A stretch of DNA of 36,529 bases, taken from the NCBI GenBank assembly GCA_016281925.1, contig JAEEJP010000116.1, positions 1 through 36,529 of the forward strand, read 5' to 3'. Source of the DNA: Methanomassiliicoccaceae archaeon. Its GTDB lineage: Archaea > Thermoplasmatota > Thermoplasmata > Methanomassiliicoccales > Methanomethylophilaceae. The position numbers were made by a program, and so were the translations under genes. Positions 1 through 34,599 of this stretch are shown piece by piece. Each line of letters begins with the position of its first letter. The first letter of the stretch is position 1. The notes below the pieces were generated by a model. That model was not told where the DNA came from, did not search any database, and was given only the letters and a program-made list of their open reading frames with translations.

Positions 1-238
1 CTGTGCTCTCTTCCTAGGGCCGTATGCCCTAGATCCTCTCTTAGGACGTCTTCTTTGTGGCATATTCTCACATACCTGCGAGGGTGTCTTCGCTAACCTC
101 GCGATTTATCAGACGAACGTCTTAATGCTTCGACCGTGGCGCCTATGATGCCGCCAGAATTCCCGTGGGATGGCGGCGGGATGTGGGTTGCGTTCGCATT
201 GCCCGATGCGTCTGGTCGAACACTATTATGTCCAATCC
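1..238 (-). ncRNA. Putative structured non-coding RNA, 3' end outside the window
   Basis: No convincing ORF covers this stretch. Read on the minus strand it follows an AT-rich promoter (TATA-like elements at 251-268) and folds into many local helices. Examples are CGCAT/ATGCG, a GCCGCCA/TGGCGGC stem enclosing CCC/GGG, AGAC/GTCT, GCGAGG/CCTCGC, and a terminal CTAGGGC/GCCCTAG hairpin near 15-32. A longer pairing, TTCGACC with GGTCGAA, brackets the first domain. The start near 238 is estimated from the TATA position; the 3' end lies beyond base 1. I looked for the conserved cores of RNase P RNA (GAGGAAAGUC), SRP RNA and rRNA and did not find them in this part. Its identity is unknown. Confidence 0.45.
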
Positions 239-528
239 GACCGATGGTAATAGTATATCATATTTAAACATGGCAGTCCCACAATATTACGGCTTGATCT
301 TCTGCCAAAGAAATCGCCGGTGATGCCGGCATAGCAGCGAAGAATCGGAGCGAGCGGATCTGCATGGGAACGCGGATGATTGCCGGACGGATGCTGGCGG
401 GATAACCGGCCGGCATGGCGCCCGGCTTTTCAAGAACGCGCGAAACGGGAACTCCGCTGCACGATCGAAAGATGAGGGCCACGGGGCGATGCCCCCTGCG
501 ATCCCCGGATAACTCTGGAGCAGCGCCT
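239..528. other. Intergenic region, promoter at left, otherwise empty
   Basis: The left 30 bases carry the TATA-like elements assigned to the leftward RNA. The remainder, downstream of the minus-strand ATP-grasp gene, contains only short ORFs with no recognisable protein features. I see nothing else supportable here. Confidence 0.4.
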
Positions 529-1380
529 TCACGCCCGTTTCTTACTGAAATATTTCCCGTACTTTTCTTCCGGAGCCTCTCCCGTCAGCTGCGGAAATAT
601 GGTCATATCCCACTTGGAATTCCCTTCTATCAATATGGGCCCGTACGGTGTTATGGCGACATCCCACCCTACCGAATTCATGCCGTACAGATGCTTATGG
701 GCATTGACGACCAATTCTTTTGCGGCATCCCAAAACGGAATGGTGAATTCGGAGAATTTGATGCCGGTGAGAGGGTGCTTGGTGAACTTTTTGCCGGTGC
801 TGATCTGAAGGCCCTGCTTGCTGAGCCGACCATCATCGCTTACCGCCATCGTGATCCCTCCCGAATGGCTGTTGTCGACATGGCTGTCATCGACGCTCAC
901 TTTCATCCAATGCTCGAATATGTCTATTGAAGATTTACTGCGGACAGTGACTATGCGTATCGTGTTGACGCAATTGGGATTCAGCGATGCCATCGCCGGA
1001 TGCTGCTGGACCTTCTCCTCCAGTATCCATGTGTATTTGTTGATGTTGGGGATCGAAACCAGATCGCTGTAGCTGTCGACGTAATAAGTAGTGGTGCCCT
1101 GCATCCCCCGGATCCATTTGCAGAAGTACCCTCCCATCTGCTTCAGATCGCCGCCGATCTACGGATCCAGATTGCAGTCGCAATATTCTCCTTTGTAGTA
1201 AATCCCAAGAAGATCGGGGCATCCCAGATTGAATCTGTCGGCGAAAATATGGAATGCCAGCTTGTCATCCAAAAAGCATATCTGAGGCTTGTTGTTGAAG
1301 ACATTCCTATAGTTCATGTAGATTCTAAGCTTTTCTTTCCAATATTCTTCGTCTTTTTTCACTTTGGCTGATGCTGGCAT
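529..1380 (-). CDS. ATP-grasp protein (sugar-transfer-associated type) with an in-frame TAG at codon 74
   Basis: The reading frame opens with ATG at 1380 and stays in one frame to a TGA at 529, apart from a single TAG at 1159-1161. Read through, the product is about 283 residues. After the TAG comes a typical ATP-grasp nucleotide-binding segment (GGYFCKWIRGMQG), then NSHSGGITMAVSDDG and the C-terminal metal/ATP site VGWDVAITPYGPILIEGN. These resemble the sugar-transfer-associated ATP-grasp family. The part before the TAG (FADRFNLGCPDLLGIYY) looks like the normal N-terminal lead-in, so both halves are one gene. TAG is almost absent as a stop in this window and encodes pyrrolysine in related methanogens, so codon 74 may be Pyl; otherwise this is a nonsense-mutated gene. 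A TATA box lies around 1405-1424. Substrate unknown. Confidence 0.7.
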
Positions 1381-1513
1381 GATATAGCGAGCAATACCTG
1401 TGCAAATAAATAATATATAGCATTCATGCGGAGCGCCTGTCTCGGAAAGTCCGGCCGGCAGGGATGCCGGGCACAGCCTTCCGGCTGGATCTCACTCGCA
1501 GATAGGATAAAAT

Positions 1514-1540
1514 CGGGCGGGGAAGGAAGCGCCTCGCCCG
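1514..1540 (-). terminator. Hairpin terminator after the 1547-1882 gene
   Basis: CGGGCGGGG (1514-1522) pairs with CCTCGCCCG (1532-1540) with one mismatch. In the minus-strand direction the hairpin is followed by ATTTTATCC. It sits directly downstream of the TGA at 1547. Confidence 0.55.
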
Positions 1541-1546
1541 GAAAAA

Positions 1547-1882
1547 TCAGAGCTTGCCTTCCTTGGCTTTCTTCTGGGCCCTCTTCATGCGGGCCTTTGC
1601 GTCGAACCCCGTGGCTTTCTCGGCGAACTCGTTGAGCTTCCTCTTGCTGTCGAGGACCTCGGCATCCGGGATCTGCGTGGGATCGATGTCTTTGTTGGCG
1701 GTGGTTATGTCCAGCACCGTTTTGGACACTATGCTGGCCTCTATCCTCTCCATTATGCCGTATGAGGATACGAACTTCCCGCCTTCCTCGGAGACGTTTC
1801 CGAAGACCTCCTCCATGAGATTCTTCAGGCCGTCTCCCTCTATGTTCTTGAGCCATCCTTTCTTGATATCGAAATCTGCCAT
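1547..1882 (-). CDS. Small conserved archaeal protein, DUF5611-like (tentative)
   Basis: This is a 111-residue soluble protein without signal or membrane segment. The N-terminal part (KKGWLKNIEGDGLKNLMEEVFGN, then GGKFVSSYG) resembles a small domain family of Thermoplasmata that I recall as DUF5611, but I cannot confirm the match. The C-terminal 25 residues are strongly basic and helical (KARMKRAQKKAKEGK), as in many nucleic-acid-binding proteins. It begins four bases after the stop of the RaSEA gene on the same strand, so the two are probably cotranscribed and perhaps linked in tRNA modification. Function unknown. Confidence 0.75.
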   Translation of the reverse strand: MADFDIKKGWLKNIEGDGLKNLMEEVFGNVSEEGGKFVSSYGIMERIEASIVSKTVLDITTANKDIDPTQIPDAEVLDSKRKLNEFAEKATGFDAKARMKRAQKKAKEGKL

Positions 1883-1886
1883 ATTA

Positions 1887-2912
1887 TCACAAAACCCTGA
1901 GGGTAAGCTCGTTTTCGAAGCTTCTGTCCAGGTCCGCAGGGGATCCGAGCAGATCCTCGGATTCCATGTATGCCTTCCATTTCGCTATGCATTGGCAGGA
2001 AACCTCCAGATCGGAGGGGTCCTGGGTGAAACTGAATCTTTCGACCGCGTCCAGCGCCGCCCTGTCGCAGGAGCCGCAGTTGTGGACTCCCCTCTGGGAT
2101 CCTCCCCCGGACGGCGAGGACATCAGCCTGGCATGGACGCTTCCTGACAGCTGCCTGAACACCTCTATCAGAGTCCATATCCAGGGCGGCCTGAATTCGC
2201 CCCTTTTCCACAGCCTCTCCACATATGTCCCGTGCTGGACGTTCAGAGGGTTCACGGAGATCTCGTCCGAGAAAGCGTCGGCGAACATGGCGGAAGAGAC
2301 CGCATCGCGTATGGCCATGGATTCCGTCATGAACGGGGTCTTCAGAAGGAGATAGGTCCTCACGCCGATCCCGCGGCTCTTCAGAAGGAGCCCTGCGCGG
2401 CGTATGTCGTCGGGGGTGAAACCCTTGTGGACGGCCGCCGCCAGCACCTCGGGGTCGGAGCTCTCCAGCCCCAGCGCCACGGTGGCGTTCCCCGGAATCT
2501 CCCCCGCCGAATCCTCGGTGATGAATTCGGGGCGGCTCTCGAAGAGAAGGCGGGCGCATCCGGAGAAAGCGGAATATATCTCGGCCCGGACCGCGGGAGG
2601 CACCTCGTTGTCGTCCAGAAAGCTCCCGGACGTGTAAATCTTGACGAAAGGCTCCCCTTTGTACTTGGAAAGAGCCTGCGCCAGCTGTTTCCGGAGGTCT
2701 TCCTCGGATACGTCGCGGAGGGAGGCTTCTCTGTAGCCGCACATGGTGCAGCCGCCGCTCCTGACCCAGCAGCATCCGCTGGTGCGCATAATCATCACCA
2801 TAGCGCGGACCTTCTCGCCGCCGGCCATGTCGTCCTCTTTCCACAGAGCCTCGAGCTCCGACGGGGATCTTCTCTCTTTCAATCTCCGACACCTGCGCCC
2901 CCATCCGAGCAT
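1887..2912 (-). CDS. raSEA: Archaeosine biosynthesis radical SAM protein RaSEA
   Basis: The product has about 341 residues and a radical-SAM core of the Elp3-like kind. The cluster cysteines are in SGCCWVRSGGCTMCGY (Cys47/48, Cys55, Cys58), followed by KIYTSGSFLD, a glycine-rich strand GLESSDPEVL and TYLLLKTPFMTE. The C-terminal HNCGSC...CQC cysteines may bind metal. RaSEA is the radical-SAM partner of ArcS; together they convert lysine-modified preQ0 in the D-loop of archaeal tRNA into archaeosine. The GGCTMCGY signature is characteristic of the family. The ATG at 2912 is the first in frame; a TTG a few codons downstream is an alternative. The gene is divergent from the flavoprotein gene at 3014 and heads a two-gene unit. 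Confidence 0.85.
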   Translation of the reverse strand: MLGWGRRCRRLKERRSPSELEALWKEDDMAGGEKVRAMVMIMRTSGCCWVRSGGCTMCGYREASLRDVSEEDLRKQLAQALSKYKGEPFVKIYTSGSFLDDNEVPPAVRAEIYSAFSGCARLLFESRPEFITEDSAGEIPGNATVALGLESSDPEVLAAAVHKGFTPDDIRRAGLLLKSRGIGVRTYLLLKTPFMTESMAIRDAVSSAMFADAFSDEISVNPLNVQHGTYVERLWKRGEFRPPWIWTLIEVFRQLSGSVHARLMSSPSGGGSQRGVHNCGSCDRAALDAVERFSFTQDPSDLEVSCQCIAKWKAYMESEDLLGSPADLDRSFENELTLRVL

Positions 2913-29433: not shown

Positions 29434-32400
29434 ATGAGAATGAAAACAGCAGCAGCTGCGGTCTTCGCTGTGACCGTGATGGTGCTTTCGTCTCTGGCTG
29501 TCGGCATCGGTGATTCGGACGCCGACGGCACGCTGATAGAGACGGCCCCCCTGCCAGCTCAGAAGACCTATATGTATGTCATAAAAACAGATTCCGACAA
29601 CTCAAAAATACTGTCCGTAAGAGCTTCGGAGAACGGTTCCGCGCTTAAGCAGATAACCGGGGCCAGAACATCCGGGAGCACAGGGGCGGATGCGATATCC
29701 GACTTCTGGAAATTCGATCCCGAGACCGGCATGGGTCCGTTCAACTCATTCTATGCCGCGGTGAACATAGGCAACGGATACGGCGATGACTGCGGAGAGA
29801 AGCAGATCAGCCCCAAAGCCGGGCGCATATCCTTCGTGCTGGACCCCTACGATCTGTCCAGAACCCTCAAAGGAACCGAATACGAAGGGAACTACAACAT
29901 CATGCTCATAATCCCGACCGCCTACTGGAAGGCCAGCTCGGATGCCCTCTACATATCCAGCTCCCCCAGCTATACCGCTGGGACCGTCAAATGCACCGGA
30001 ATGACGGCGTATGCCCATTCCGCCGGGGACGGCAAGACCTTCAAGAGCATATTCCCGTACATAGGCATAGGCGTCTACGAGGCCAGCATCGACGGGAATC
30101 TGATGATGTCGAAGAGCGGCCTTTATCCCACATACACCAGCAACAGCTTCTTCGCGGCATGCGCCGGCATGCTGACCCCCGCATCCGGATCCGGCTTCCA
30201 GATGTGGAACTTCTACCAATGGACGCTGTACAAGATTATGGCTTATACTGTCATGGGCACCAAGAATTCACAGGCGATGCTTGGCCGGGGCTTCGATGCC
30301 GACATGGAAACCCAGCCGACCGGGCTCTCGGATTGCGCAGGGCCGTATGCAGATGCGACATCCGAGTATTCCAAGCTGTTCATCGAGAACTCCTGGGGAT
30401 ATCTCCGCGAGCAGCTCGGCGATACCTATGCGGACGGAGGCGCCCTGTATACGGGAAACGCCTTGGGCGGAGCCAGGCTGGGAGATGGCCAGACTTTCGC
30501 GGGACAGAGCATAAGCCTCGGGCAGGGATGGATAAACTCCGCCTCCAAGGCTTCGGAGTTCTGGGATTTCCCCGTCTCATACGTTTCCGGCAGCAACAGC
30601 GGCGACCTGTCTTTCTCAGGCGACTATGTGAGCTGCTCTTCGGATCGGCGCCTGGTAAACGTGGGAGGAGGCTGGAACGAAAAGACAGGCATGGCCGGCA
30701 TCGCCGAGCTCATCTGCGACTGCGACCTGTCCAGCACGTATTCCGATGTGGGCACCCGTCTGGCATACGTCATGTCCGCGGATGCGGCGGCGCCGTCTAC
30801 CGCCCCGGAATACACGCCTCTGACCGCCGGAGTGCCGTACAAGGTTACGCTGGATGGCTACCGGGATTACGCGACGTTCAGGTTCACTGCCCCCGAGGAC
30901 GGCATCTACCGGTTCTGGACGTCAGGCATGTTCAGCACTACCGGCGTCCTGCTGAATTCGGTCGGGAACCGCATCAAAACGGACGCGACCTGGGATGACG
31001 GCCTGAACTTCTCCATGAGCTGCCTCCTGGAAGGGGGATGCAACTATTACCTCAGGACCTCAAGCTACGGCACGGACGAAAAGACCTTCACGGTATCGGC
31101 CGAATTCGTATCCGGCCCGCCTATGAGGGACGTCCATGCTTTCAGCCCGGGAACCTATGCTTTATTCAGGAACATAGCAAAATCCTCGGAAAGCAATGAA
31201 ATGGATATCTTCGTAGGATACTGCGAGCATGCGCTGATCGGGCAGTTCGAGCTGGGATTCGAACCGGAGAACGCGGTCGTCACCGTATACGCCTACGACG
31301 TGGACGAGGAATCCGGGGAAAGGAACGTCATCCATCTTGAGGACCTGACTGACGGCACCGAAACCGAATTCCCTGCCCAGTATATCCACGGCTCGGACAG
31401 CACCTGGAGCACATCCACCGTGACCATAGACGGGCGGTACCTGAATTCCGGCCACAGATACGCCCTCTACAACTATGAGATGGTGGATTGGTGGGTCGTC
31501 TGGATAAGGGACGTCGCCATTCAGTTCGCAGGCGGCGAATACGATCTTAGCCTCACCGCCTCGGCGTCGGGATCCGATGTGGAAACATCTCTGTCGGGCA
31601 AGCTGGCCCCCGGATCTTACGAAGTGGAATACGGGGTGTACAGAACGTCCGACCTGGTGCATCTGCAGACCATCCACGGCTCGTTCGCCGCCGGCTCCGA
31701 CGGAAGATTCGCGGCGGACATGACGTTCTCCATGTCTGGATACGATACCGGCGAGTACAGAGTGGATGCGTTCATCAGATCGGGAGGCGATCTGGTCAGC
31801 ACCGCCGTCTGCACATTCAGCATGAGCGGCCACTCCGTCAACTACAGTCCCAACGGCGGATCCAACAACGTGCCTGAAGGGGCTTCGTACGCGGACGGAG
31901 ACACGGTAAAAGTGAGATTCGATAGGATACCCACCAGATCCGGCGGCAAATTCCTGGGGTGGTCCGCCGACAAAGCCGCTTCCGAAGCGGAATATACCGC
32001 TGACGGAAAGAACACGTTCGTCATCAGAAAAGACGTCACGCTGTATGCCGTATGGACGGGCAGGATCCCGGCCGGCACGGAGTTCACTGCGGGGCATCTG
32101 AAGTATTCCGTGATATCGTCGGATCCGGCGCAGGCATCCGTGATCGGTTATACCTCCGGCCTGAAGAACGCGATTGTGCCGGCATCAGTGGAATACGGCG
32201 GTAACGTCTACGAGGTGGCATCGGTAGGGGAGAAGGCATTCTATGGGAGCGCATCTCTGGTGAATGCATCCGTAAGCGCCCCCGTGATATCGCAGAAAGC
32301 GTTCGGCAACTGCGCGTCTCTGAAGGCGGTCGCTCTGCCCTCGGTCGAAGAGATAGGAGCTTACGCGTTCTACGGATGCGGAGCGCTGACGTCAGCCAAG

Positions 32401-34599
32401 TTCTCGGAAGATCTAGCTTCCGTCGGATCCAACGCGTTCGGCAAGGCCCAGTTCCTCGTCAACGGCAAAGAGGTGCCTGCGACGGCCAAGAACCTCGCCG
32501 GAAAGAACTTCGCAGGCTCGGACGGGAAGCTTCGGTATCCCTCCGTCCCCGTGGGCAAAGTGTTCGCGAAGGACGGCGTGAAATACACAGTCGTCTCGCT
32601 TGATCCTGCATCGGTCGATGCGACGGGATTCTCGGCCGGAATCAAAGCGGCAGACATACCCGCTTCCGTGACGTACGGCGGCATATCATTCCCGGTGGCA
32701 TCCGTCGCAGAGAAAGCGTTCTACGGGTGCCCGACGCTTGAAAGCTTGTCGGTATCCGCGCCTGCGATATCCCAGAAGGCGTTCGCCAACTGCGCGTCGC
32801 TGAAAATCCTGTCCCTGACGTCGGTGAAGGAGATAGGGGCGTACGCGTTCTACGGGTGCGGAGCGCTGACATCTGCGGGATTCTCCGAGGACCTCGCATC
32901 GGTGGGAGCGTCCGCGTTCGGCAAAATCCAGTTCCTCGTCAACGGCAAAGAGGCAGCGGCGGATGCCGGCAGCCTGTCCGGAAAGACCTTCTCAGGGTCG
33001 GACGGGAAGCTTCGGTATTCCTCCGTCCCCGTGGGCAAAGTGTTCGCGAAGGACAGCGTGAAGTACACAGTCGTCTCGCTTGATCCTGCATCGGTCGATG
33101 CGACCGGATTCTCGGCCGGAATCAAATCCGCGAGCATCCCGGCTTCGGTGACGTACAGCGGGATCAGATTCGCCGTCGGATCGGTGGCTGAGAAGGCATT
33201 CTACGGGTGCCCGACGCTTGAAAGCTTGTCGGTATCCGCGCCTGCGATATCCCAGAAGGCGTTCGCCAACTGCGCGGCCCTGAAGACAATCGCACTGACG
33301 TCGGTGAAAGAAATCGGGGCGTACGCATTCTACGGGTGCGGCGCCCTCGCATCCGCCGAGTTCGCTAAAGATCTCGCTTCCGTCGGATCCAACGCATTCG
33401 GCAAAATCCAGTTCCTCGTCAACGGCAAAGAGGCAGCGGCGGATGCCGGCAGCCTGTCCGGAAAGACCTTCTCAGGCTCGGACGGGAAGCTTCTATATTC
33501 CTCCGTGCCAATCGGCAAGGTATTCACCAAGAACAATGTGAAATACACTGTCACATCGCTGGATCCGTTCTCCGCGGACGCAACGGGATTCGCATCGGGC
33601 ATCAAATCCGCGAGCATCCCGGCTTCGGTGACGTACAGCGGAATCAGATTCGCCGTCGGATCGGTGGCTGAGAAGGCATTCTACGGGTGCCCGACACTTG
33701 AAAGCTTGTCGGTATCCGCGCCTGCGATATCCCAGAAGGCGTTCGCCAACTGCGCGGCCCTGAAGACAATCGCACTGACGTCGGTGAAAGAAATCGGGGC
33801 GTACGCATTCTATGGATGCGATGCCCTAGGATCCGCCGAATTCTCCGGGAGCCTTTCTTCTGTGGGATCGGCTGCGTTCAGCAAGATCCAGTTCTTCGCC
33901 GGCGGCAAAACGATCGCTGCCACGGCCAAGAATCTGGCAGGAAAGGAATTCTCGGGATCCGCCGGCAAGCTCTATGCGAAATCGCCGGTTGGGACGGAGT
34001 TCGCCGTAGGGAAGCTGAAGTACACCGTGACCTCCCTGAATCCCTACGAAGCATCCCTGACCGGATATTCCGGAGGGATTGCAGGCGTCTCGGTTCCAGG
34101 CTCGGTGAGTCTGGGCGGCGTGCCCGCAGATGTCGTCTCCATCGGAAGCCAGGCATTCCTGAACTGCAAGACGCTCACTTACGCCGATCTCGGAGATGCC
34201 GTATCCGTAGGGCATAAGGCGTTCGCCGGATGCTCCTCCCTGAGGTCTGTCCAGATGCATTCCGTGAAAGACATAGGGTCTTACGCTTTCTACGGGTGCA
34301 AAATGCTCACGGTGGCCGATCTCCCCGGAACCGGGACTGTCGGAGCCGGCGCGTTCTCCGGATGCACCTCTCTGAAGATGCTGGACATGCCTGAAGCGAA
34401 GACCATAGGTGCCGGCGCGTTCTCGGGCTGCACTGGGCTGATGTTCGTATCGATGTCGAAGGATCTGGCCAAGATAAGCTCCGATTCCTTCTCCAAAGTG
34501 AATATATCAAAGGGAACCGCGTCGCTGGCAGTGACGGCGAAGAATATGGCCGGCCACATTTTCGCGGGGACGGCAGGAAACCTGAAGCTCGTAGTCTGA
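29434..34599 (+). CDS. Large secreted BspA-type leucine-rich-repeat surface protein
   Basis: The 1721-residue product starts with a Sec signal peptide (hydrophobic residues ~5-24, cleavage probable near GIGDSDADG). Residues ~30-450 are an extracellular module with the motif FQMWNFYQWTLYKIMAYTVMG (about 256-276), seen in gut surface and phage-tail carbohydrate-recognition proteins. A PPC-like beta domain (~455-560) and Ig-like segments follow. Next comes an InlB/Listeria-Bacteroides repeat (~800-880, YSPNGG...FLGWS...LYAVW). From ~880 to the end there are LRR_5 (BspA-like) repeats built on KAFYGCxxL and IGAYAFYGC. I see no C-terminal anchor. Probable role: adhesion to host cells, other microbes or polysaccharides. 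Three nearly identical 480-bp units show recent internal duplication. Confidence 0.88.
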   Translation: MRMKTAAAAVFAVTVMVLSSLAVGIGDSDADGTLIETAPLPAQKTYMYVIKTDSDNSKILSVRASENGSALKQITGARTSGSTGADAISDFWKFDPETGMGPFNSFYAAVNIGNGYGDDCGEKQISPKAGRISFVLDPYDLSRTLKGTEYEGNYNIMLIIPTAYWKASSDALYISSSPSYTAGTVKCTGMTAYAHSAGDGKTFKSIFPYIGIGVYEASIDGNLMMSKSGLYPTYTSNSFFAACAGMLTPASGSGFQMWNFYQWTLYKIMAYTVMGTKNSQAMLGRGFDADMETQPTGLSDCAGPYADATSEYSKLFIENSWGYLREQLGDTYADGGALYTGNALGGARLGDGQTFAGQSISLGQGWINSASKASEFWDFPVSYVSGSNSGDLSFSGDYVSCSSDRRLVNVGGGWNEKTGMAGIAELICDCDLSSTYSDVGTRLAYVMSADAAAPSTAPEYTPLTAGVPYKVTLDGYRDYATFRFTAPEDGIYRFWTSGMFSTTGVLLNSVGNRIKTDATWDDGLNFSMSCLLEGGCNYYLRTSSYGTDEKTFTVSAEFVSGPPMRDVHAFSPGTYALFRNIAKSSESNEMDIFVGYCEHALIGQFELGFEPENAVVTVYAYDVDEESGERNVIHLEDLTDGTETEFPAQYIHGSDSTWSTSTVTIDGRYLNSGHRYALYNYEMVDWWVVWIRDVAIQFAGGEYDLSLTASASGSDVETSLSGKLAPGSYEVEYGVYRTSDLVHLQTIHGSFAAGSDGRFAADMTFSMSGYDTGEYRVDAFIRSGGDLVSTAVCTFSMSGHSVNYSPNGGSNNVPEGASYADGDTVKVRFDRIPTRSGGKFLGWSADKAASEAEYTADGKNTFVIRKDVTLYAVWTGRIPAGTEFTAGHLKYSVISSDPAQASVIGYTSGLKNAIVPASVEYGGNVYEVASVGEKAFYGSASLVNASVSAPVISQKAFGNCASLKAVALPSVEEIGAYAFYGCGALTSAKFSEDLASVGSNAFGKAQFLVNGKEVPATAKNLAGKNFAGSDGKLRYPSVPVGKVFAKDGVKYTVVSLDPASVDATGFSAGIKAADIPASVTYGGISFPVASVAEKAFYGCPTLESLSVSAPAISQKAFANCASLKILSLTSVKEIGAYAFYGCGALTSAGFSEDLASVGASAFGKIQFLVNGKEAAADAGSLSGKTFSGSDGKLRYSSVPVGKVFAKDSVKYTVVSLDPASVDATGFSAGIKSASIPASVTYSGIRFAVGSVAEKAFYGCPTLESLSVSAPAISQKAFANCAALKTIALTSVKEIGAYAFYGCGALASAEFAKDLASVGSNAFGKIQFLVNGKEAAADAGSLSGKTFSGSDGKLLYSSVPIGKVFTKNNVKYTVTSLDPFSADATGFASGIKSASIPASVTYSGIRFAVGSVAEKAFYGCPTLESLSVSAPAISQKAFANCAALKTIALTSVKEIGAYAFYGCDALGSAEFSGSLSSVGSAAFSKIQFFAGGKTIAATAKNLAGKEFSGSAGKLYAKSPVGTEFAVGKLKYTVTSLNPYEASLTGYSGGIAGVSVPGSVSLGGVPADVVSIGSQAFLNCKTLTYADLGDAVSVGHKAFAGCSSLRSVQMHSVKDIGSYAFYGCKMLTVADLPGTGTVGAGAFSGCTSLKMLDMPEAKTIGAGAFSGCTGLMFVSMSKDLAKISSDSFSKVNISKGTASLAVTAKNMAGHIFAGTAGNLKLVV
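32521..33960 (+). repeat. Three tandem ~480-bp (160-residue) repeats in the BspA-type gene
   Basis: The landmark GACGGGAAGCTTC recurs at 32521, 33001 and 33481, a period of exactly 480 bp. Units starting near 33121 and 33601 are almost identical over more than 200 bp, including synonymous positions. More diverged units flank them on both sides (about 32056-32520 and 33961-34590). Confidence 0.9.

Follow-up and report, generated by a model that had tools for sequence, protein, structure and literature searches.

Does an archaeal ATP-grasp gene that contains a single in-frame TAG codon encode a working enzyme with pyrrolysine (Pyl), or has it been disabled by a recent nonsense mutation? The question is raised by one end of a 36,529-nucleotide contig from a Methanomassiliicoccaceae archaeon, the whole of which is termed "the window" here. 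The relevant features of this region are as follows.

529..1380, minus strand: ATP-grasp gene (ATPgrasp_ST, 283 codons plus TGA), read through TAG; a Pfam match crosses the TAG
1159..1161, minus strand: in-frame TAG at codon 74, proposed to encode pyrrolysine; TAG occurs at the same codon of a paralogue on contig C64
1062..1158, minus strand: the 97 nucleotides 3' of the TAG, without unusual RNA structure in a comparison of folding with shuffles
1404..1419, minus strand: TATA-like A+T stretch TATATATTATTTATTT, 24-39 nucleotides upstream of the start codon, taken from the printed sequence
1547..1882, minus strand: upstream neighbor gene, encoding a DUF5611 protein, without internal TAG

The ATP-grasp gene and its amber codon

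Read from position 1380 to position 529, the frame extends from a methionine codon to TGA, and its sole internal stop is the TAG at codon 74 (CTA on the plus strand), just as the initial annotation had described it. That annotation had also proposed that the same ATP-grasp protein lies on both sides of the TAG. A profile search agrees: PF14397 (ATPgrasp_ST) alone runs across the codon, matching residues 23-262 with E=1.2e-45 and 156 bits, compared with a curated cut-off of 31.4. The protein is therefore of the same family as ATPgrasp_ST proteins of bacteria and archaea over most of its length. The gene has a G+C content of 48.5%, versus 58.1% for the window, which suggests that it was acquired. 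The A+T stretch upstream of its start codon is a putative promoter element.

Under the standard code, our home-made gene finder predicts 32 genes in the window, of which 30 end with TGA, one with TAA and one with TAG. The single TAG end is codon 74 itself. Within the limits of such a finder, the claim that TAG hardly ever serves as a stop in the window is thus borne out (1 of 32 gene ends). The nucleotides that follow the TAG (1062-1161, TAG included) show no unusual RNA structure, with a z-score of -0.24 relative to 200 shuffles, and an Rfam scan of window positions 1-2000 gave no match. RNA signals after UAG are described as not obligatory in passages of an earlier study (PMC4153887). Elsewhere in the window, positions 29440-34599 contain a very long open frame of 1719 codons with a signal-like N-terminus.

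No orthologue of the ATP-grasp gene emerged from a search of 101 further genomes belonging to the family. Among 147 genomes of the order, only the genome under study exceeds the PF14397 cut-off, and 10 of the 146 others have weaker matches. Contig scans by a short-pattern method, whose reach is confined to close relatives, confirmed no orthologue, and none was found in viral scans, conducted with whole proteins and with parts, or in phage records. Plasmid records contain seven distant matches at 25-36% identity, and sequence was retrieved for four of these. In other genomes of the phylum, PF14397 proteins are without an internal stop among the matches listed, whereas the window gene has its TAG.

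A homologue search detected 18 frames at E<=1, and the eight with E<1e-4 were aligned. In this alignment, which is loose at the site of interest, the codon-74 column holds a residue in five homologues (Leu in three, Val in one and Ile in one) and a gap in three; none has TAG. AlphaFold2 predictions for both copies were too poor to use (mean pLDDT 45.9). Codon 74 appears to fall within a loop whose length varies, immediately ahead of the strand presumed to carry the ATP-binding lysine. This position, coupled with a column of Leu, Val, Ile or gap, fits tolerated drift better than a catalytic function for Pyl. Thus, Pyl at residue 74 is probably tolerated rather than catalytic, and the codon may have drifted from, for example, a TTG leucine codon.

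A paralogue with TAG at the same codon

The sole paralogue in the genome is located at C64:6338-7174 and is 66% identical to the window copy. Its codon 74 is likewise TAG, and additional TAGs occur at codons 22 and 189, where the window copy has ATG and CAG, respectively. The paralogue contains no internal TGA or TAA, and neither copy has a frameshift. Both copies are near contig ends. We also observed a seemingly truncated frame (L023:5787-6437), with a signal-like N-terminus and an in-frame TAG near its start, that enters the second copy out of frame.

Across 275 aligned codons, the two copies differ with a dS of 1.15 and a dN of 0.24, giving a dN/dS of 0.21. The pN/pS ratio is 0.35 before the TAG (bootstrap 0.21-0.54) and 0.35 after it (0.26-0.45). 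Corrected dN/dS values are 0.14 before the TAG, where synonymous sites are near saturation, and 0.23 after it. Thus, both sides of the TAG have long been maintained by purifying selection. The codon-74 TAG is probably older than the split of the two copies, which is the simplest history. Retention of one codon at 66% identity is nonetheless unexceptional, and is by itself no proof that Pyl is needed; the evidence of conservation consists of two copies in one draft genome (1.96 Mb in 122 contigs, completeness 86%). The initial annotation had recommended an alignment of orthologues at codon 74; the TAG is kept in the paralogue, and the related genomes searched supplied no orthologue.

Pyrrolysine genes and TAG codons across the genome

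A search for pylT, pylS and pylBCD had also been proposed, and pylT, pylS, pylC and pylD are present, together with a 3' part of pylB. The pylS gene (C94:537-1181, 256 bits) adjoins pylT, the gene for tRNA-Pyl, which has the anticodon CUA. Contig C8 carries pylC (307 bits), pylD (198 bits) and the 3' part of pylB (179 bits) together. The pylB gene is cut by the contig end, and its match, to model positions 193-347, is below the model's whole-protein cut-off. Two mtmB genes have one TAG each. In a survey of tRNAs, ARAGORN assigned an anticodon to 41 of 42 matches, none of which is CUA; pylT was found separately. The Rfam tRNA model failed to list pylT, and therefore other odd tRNAs could be missed too. 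The one match of the 42 that ARAGORN missed, at L153:95-199 (G000:C105), is by eye an intron-bearing tRNA with a CAT anticodon.

We sampled TAG usage in 425,704 bases, including the window (~22% of the genome), by using a home-made gene finder based on codon usage. Coding sequence extends in the same frame beyond 17 of 35 TAG ends, compared with 17 of 298 TGA ends and two of 36 TAA ends (19 of 334 for TGA and TAA combined; Fisher p=1.8e-10). The TGA and TAA rate was taken as the background produced by same-frame neighboring genes. The other 18 of the 35 sampled TAG ends lack a clear coding extension, and termination may occur at some TAGs.

In eight of the 17 extensions, a family model crosses the TAG. 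Both ATP-grasp copies and both MtmB genes belong here, as do the genes for diphthine synthase, a PHP phosphatase, an ABC ATPase and the archaeosine synthase alpha subunit. For RNA polymerase A'', the support comes from orthologues. A nucleotidyltransferase extension has a model match below the cut-off (E=7.5e-14), and another has Sel1 repeats on both sides of the TAG, by eye. Six of the 17 are without homology confirmation; one of these was scanned and gave no Pfam match, and some resemble separate neighbor genes. Outside the 17, a family model also crosses the TAG of TruA. Judged from these predicted frames, the ATP-grasp gene is not special, and in-frame TAG codons are present in many genes of the genome. 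Locations of several such genes are as follows.

L038:13321-15012: archaeosine synthase alpha subunit, crossed by its family model
L034:6536-7327: TruA, crossed by its family model
L027:13868-14515: PHP phosphatase, crossed by its family model
L032:1533-2399: ABC ATPase, crossed by its family model
L026:12627-13421 (G000:C56), minus strand: diphthine synthase (dph5), TAG at codon 188
C1:17257-18729 (L034), minus strand: RNA polymerase A'' (rpoA2), TAG at codon 100

Two Sel1-repeat proteins were also observed, one with two in-frame TAGs (L037:1095-1949) and one with a single TAG (L028:18072-20000).

Of the 28 genus genomes matched for dph5, this one alone has the TAG. In seven relatives whose DNA was examined, the aligned codon is GAG (four), GAA (one), CAG (one) or CTG (one), and the nearest relatives have Glu codons. 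The rpoA2 gene, generally considered essential, is matched in 26 of 31 genus genomes, and seven of the 26 have TAG at exactly codon 100 (G000, which is the genome under study, G068, G057, G067, G070, G061 and G069). These seven share 71-100% identity with the query. At the same position, the remaining 19 carry AAG (16), AAA (one) or ATG (two), and thus encode Lys or Met. The A'' model match scores 409 bits, just under the cut-off of 421, and begins at residue 110, after the TAG, but within the genus the alignments of most full-length matches start at residue 1. Across the order, matches were obtained in 130 of 147 genomes, with no further internal TAG among the matches listed, some of which are partial and do not reach codon 100. 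An rpoA2 relative from another genus of the family (G007:C1:21418-22851) has one in-frame TGA. The aligned codons indicate that TAG both arises anew at sense positions, as in dph5, and becomes fixed, as in rpoA2. Such patterns are expected if TAG is decoded efficiently.

Alternative readings and biological meaning

We assign a probability of about 0.87 to the reading that the ATP-grasp gene is functional and that its host translates UAG as pyrrolysine in many genes, with Pyl inserted at residue 74 and most likely tolerated there. Read-through is well supported by the pyl genes, the TAG in the paralogue, the purifying selection that acts before and after the codon, and the TAGs in many other genes, including that for RNA polymerase A''. 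A sense codon would have drifted to TAG in a lineage in which TAG was no longer lethal. PylS would attach pyrrolysine, the product of PylB, PylC and PylD, to tRNA-Pyl, whose anticodon is CUA. The charged tRNA would then insert Pyl at residue 74, within the variable loop that follows the N-terminal part and leads into the strand presumed to bear the ATP-binding lysine. From these sequences we infer that residue 74 is Pyl and that the protein is produced and active as an enzyme.

The initial annotation had offered a recent nonsense mutation as the alternative. In favor of both copies being pseudogenes of this kind are the failure to find an orthologue in related genomes, the location of both near contig ends, and the overlap between copy 2 and the 3' end of an upstream frame that itself seems truncated. 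However, the two copies share the TAG codon despite a dS of 1.15, there is no frameshift, and the internal stops include neither TGA nor TAA. The shared TAG, together with a whole-gene dN/dS of 0.21, led us to reject decay, which we regard as highly improbable. Neither of the two findings named in the initial annotation as telling against read-through, a genome without pyl genes or orthologues with further disabling mutations, was obtained. Alternatively, the TAG could terminate translation, and a restart at the conserved Met82 could yield a separate C-terminal protein, making the locus a split ATP-grasp gene. An ATG is indeed present at codon 82 in both copies, but copy 2 has TAGs at codons 22 and 189, and the latter would cut the second product too. 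Moreover, no clear ribosome-binding site precedes Met82, by eye, and pN/pS is equal on both sides of the TAG. This arrangement, rejected because of the TAG at codon 189 of copy 2, is hardly credible.

A different objection concerns the identity of the residue. UAG might be a sense codon that is read by another tRNA or by near-cognate decoding, for example as Gln or Lys, and not as pyrrolysine. One TAG of copy 2 aligns with CAG, a Gln codon, and the rpoA2 TAG occurs where relatives mostly have Lys codons. However, the residues in relatives vary by site, being mostly Lys, mostly Glu, or Leu, Val and Ile. In addition, pylT is the only gene found for a tRNA with the CUA anticodon, and the genome combines pyl genes with amber-containing mtmB genes. 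Decoding by another tRNA is therefore unlikely, and pyrrolysine is the preferred assignment.

Other members of the order provide precedents. For 'Ca. Methanomethylophilus alvus', passages of published accounts report 16 additional putative Pyl proteins and a TAG share of 1.6% among stops, and argue that a new in-frame amber codon would be stable in a cell of this type (PMC4153887); those on ISO4-H5 report in-frame amber codons in 46 genes (PMC5011839), and the pyl cassette of the order has been described in part of a further source (PMC3941956). The genome studied here resembles both organisms in having the pyl cassette and in-frame TAGs in genes that have no link with methylamine use, and resembles 'Ca. 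M. alvus' in its rare TAG stops. It differs in that neither an ATP-grasp protein nor a TAG common to two diverged non-methyltransferase copies is named for these organisms in the passages compared. The tRNA that decodes the internal TAG of MtmB, MtbB and MttB as Pyl would do so here as well. In these methyltransferases Pyl has a role in catalysis (PMC9842639), whereas the site in the ATP-grasp protein appears to be in a variable loop. The proposal of Pyl read-through in the initial annotation is thus upheld by the pyl genes, the shared TAG and the signs of selection. Its suggestion that a Pyl protein other than a methyltransferase would be a novelty does not stand, because PMC4153887 and PMC5011839 report many genes with in-frame amber codons. 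The ATP-grasp gene is one more putative Pyl protein in an order for which in-frame amber codons are already known in dozens of genes.

Passages from two other papers (PMC10804542 and PMC11363022) contain nothing on TAG use in these genomes. In searches of open-licence PMC papers, none was found that combines ATP-grasp, pyrrolysine and amber, and none from 2024 on that combines at least two of the topics Pyl code, archaeal genetic code and pyrrolysine. Of 150 papers matched in a search for an RNA polymerase amber codon, the 15 listed include none that mentions an RNA polymerase subunit. Genome-wide use of TAG as Pyl in archaea is reportedly described by Kivenson and co-workers ('An archaeal genetic code with all TAG codons as pyrrolysine', Science 2025).

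We consider it fairly likely that a subclade of the genus can no longer live without Pyl. UAG would then be a sense codon in essential genes such as that for RNA polymerase A'', with TAG fixed at one codon in seven genomes, the methylamine-linked amino acid could no longer be lost, and newly acquired genes, the ATP-grasp gene among them, would be free to drift to TAG. Of greater consequence than the single gene is the group of archaea to which it points, where TAG seems to act as an ordinary codon even in RNA polymerase. Genes that contain TAG would be split by standard gene callers, and therefore annotations of these methanogens may be wrong where TAG read-through is not taken into account. 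The subclade would also provide a natural system in which to study how optional suppression of a stop codon develops into an obligatory code that includes an additional amino acid.
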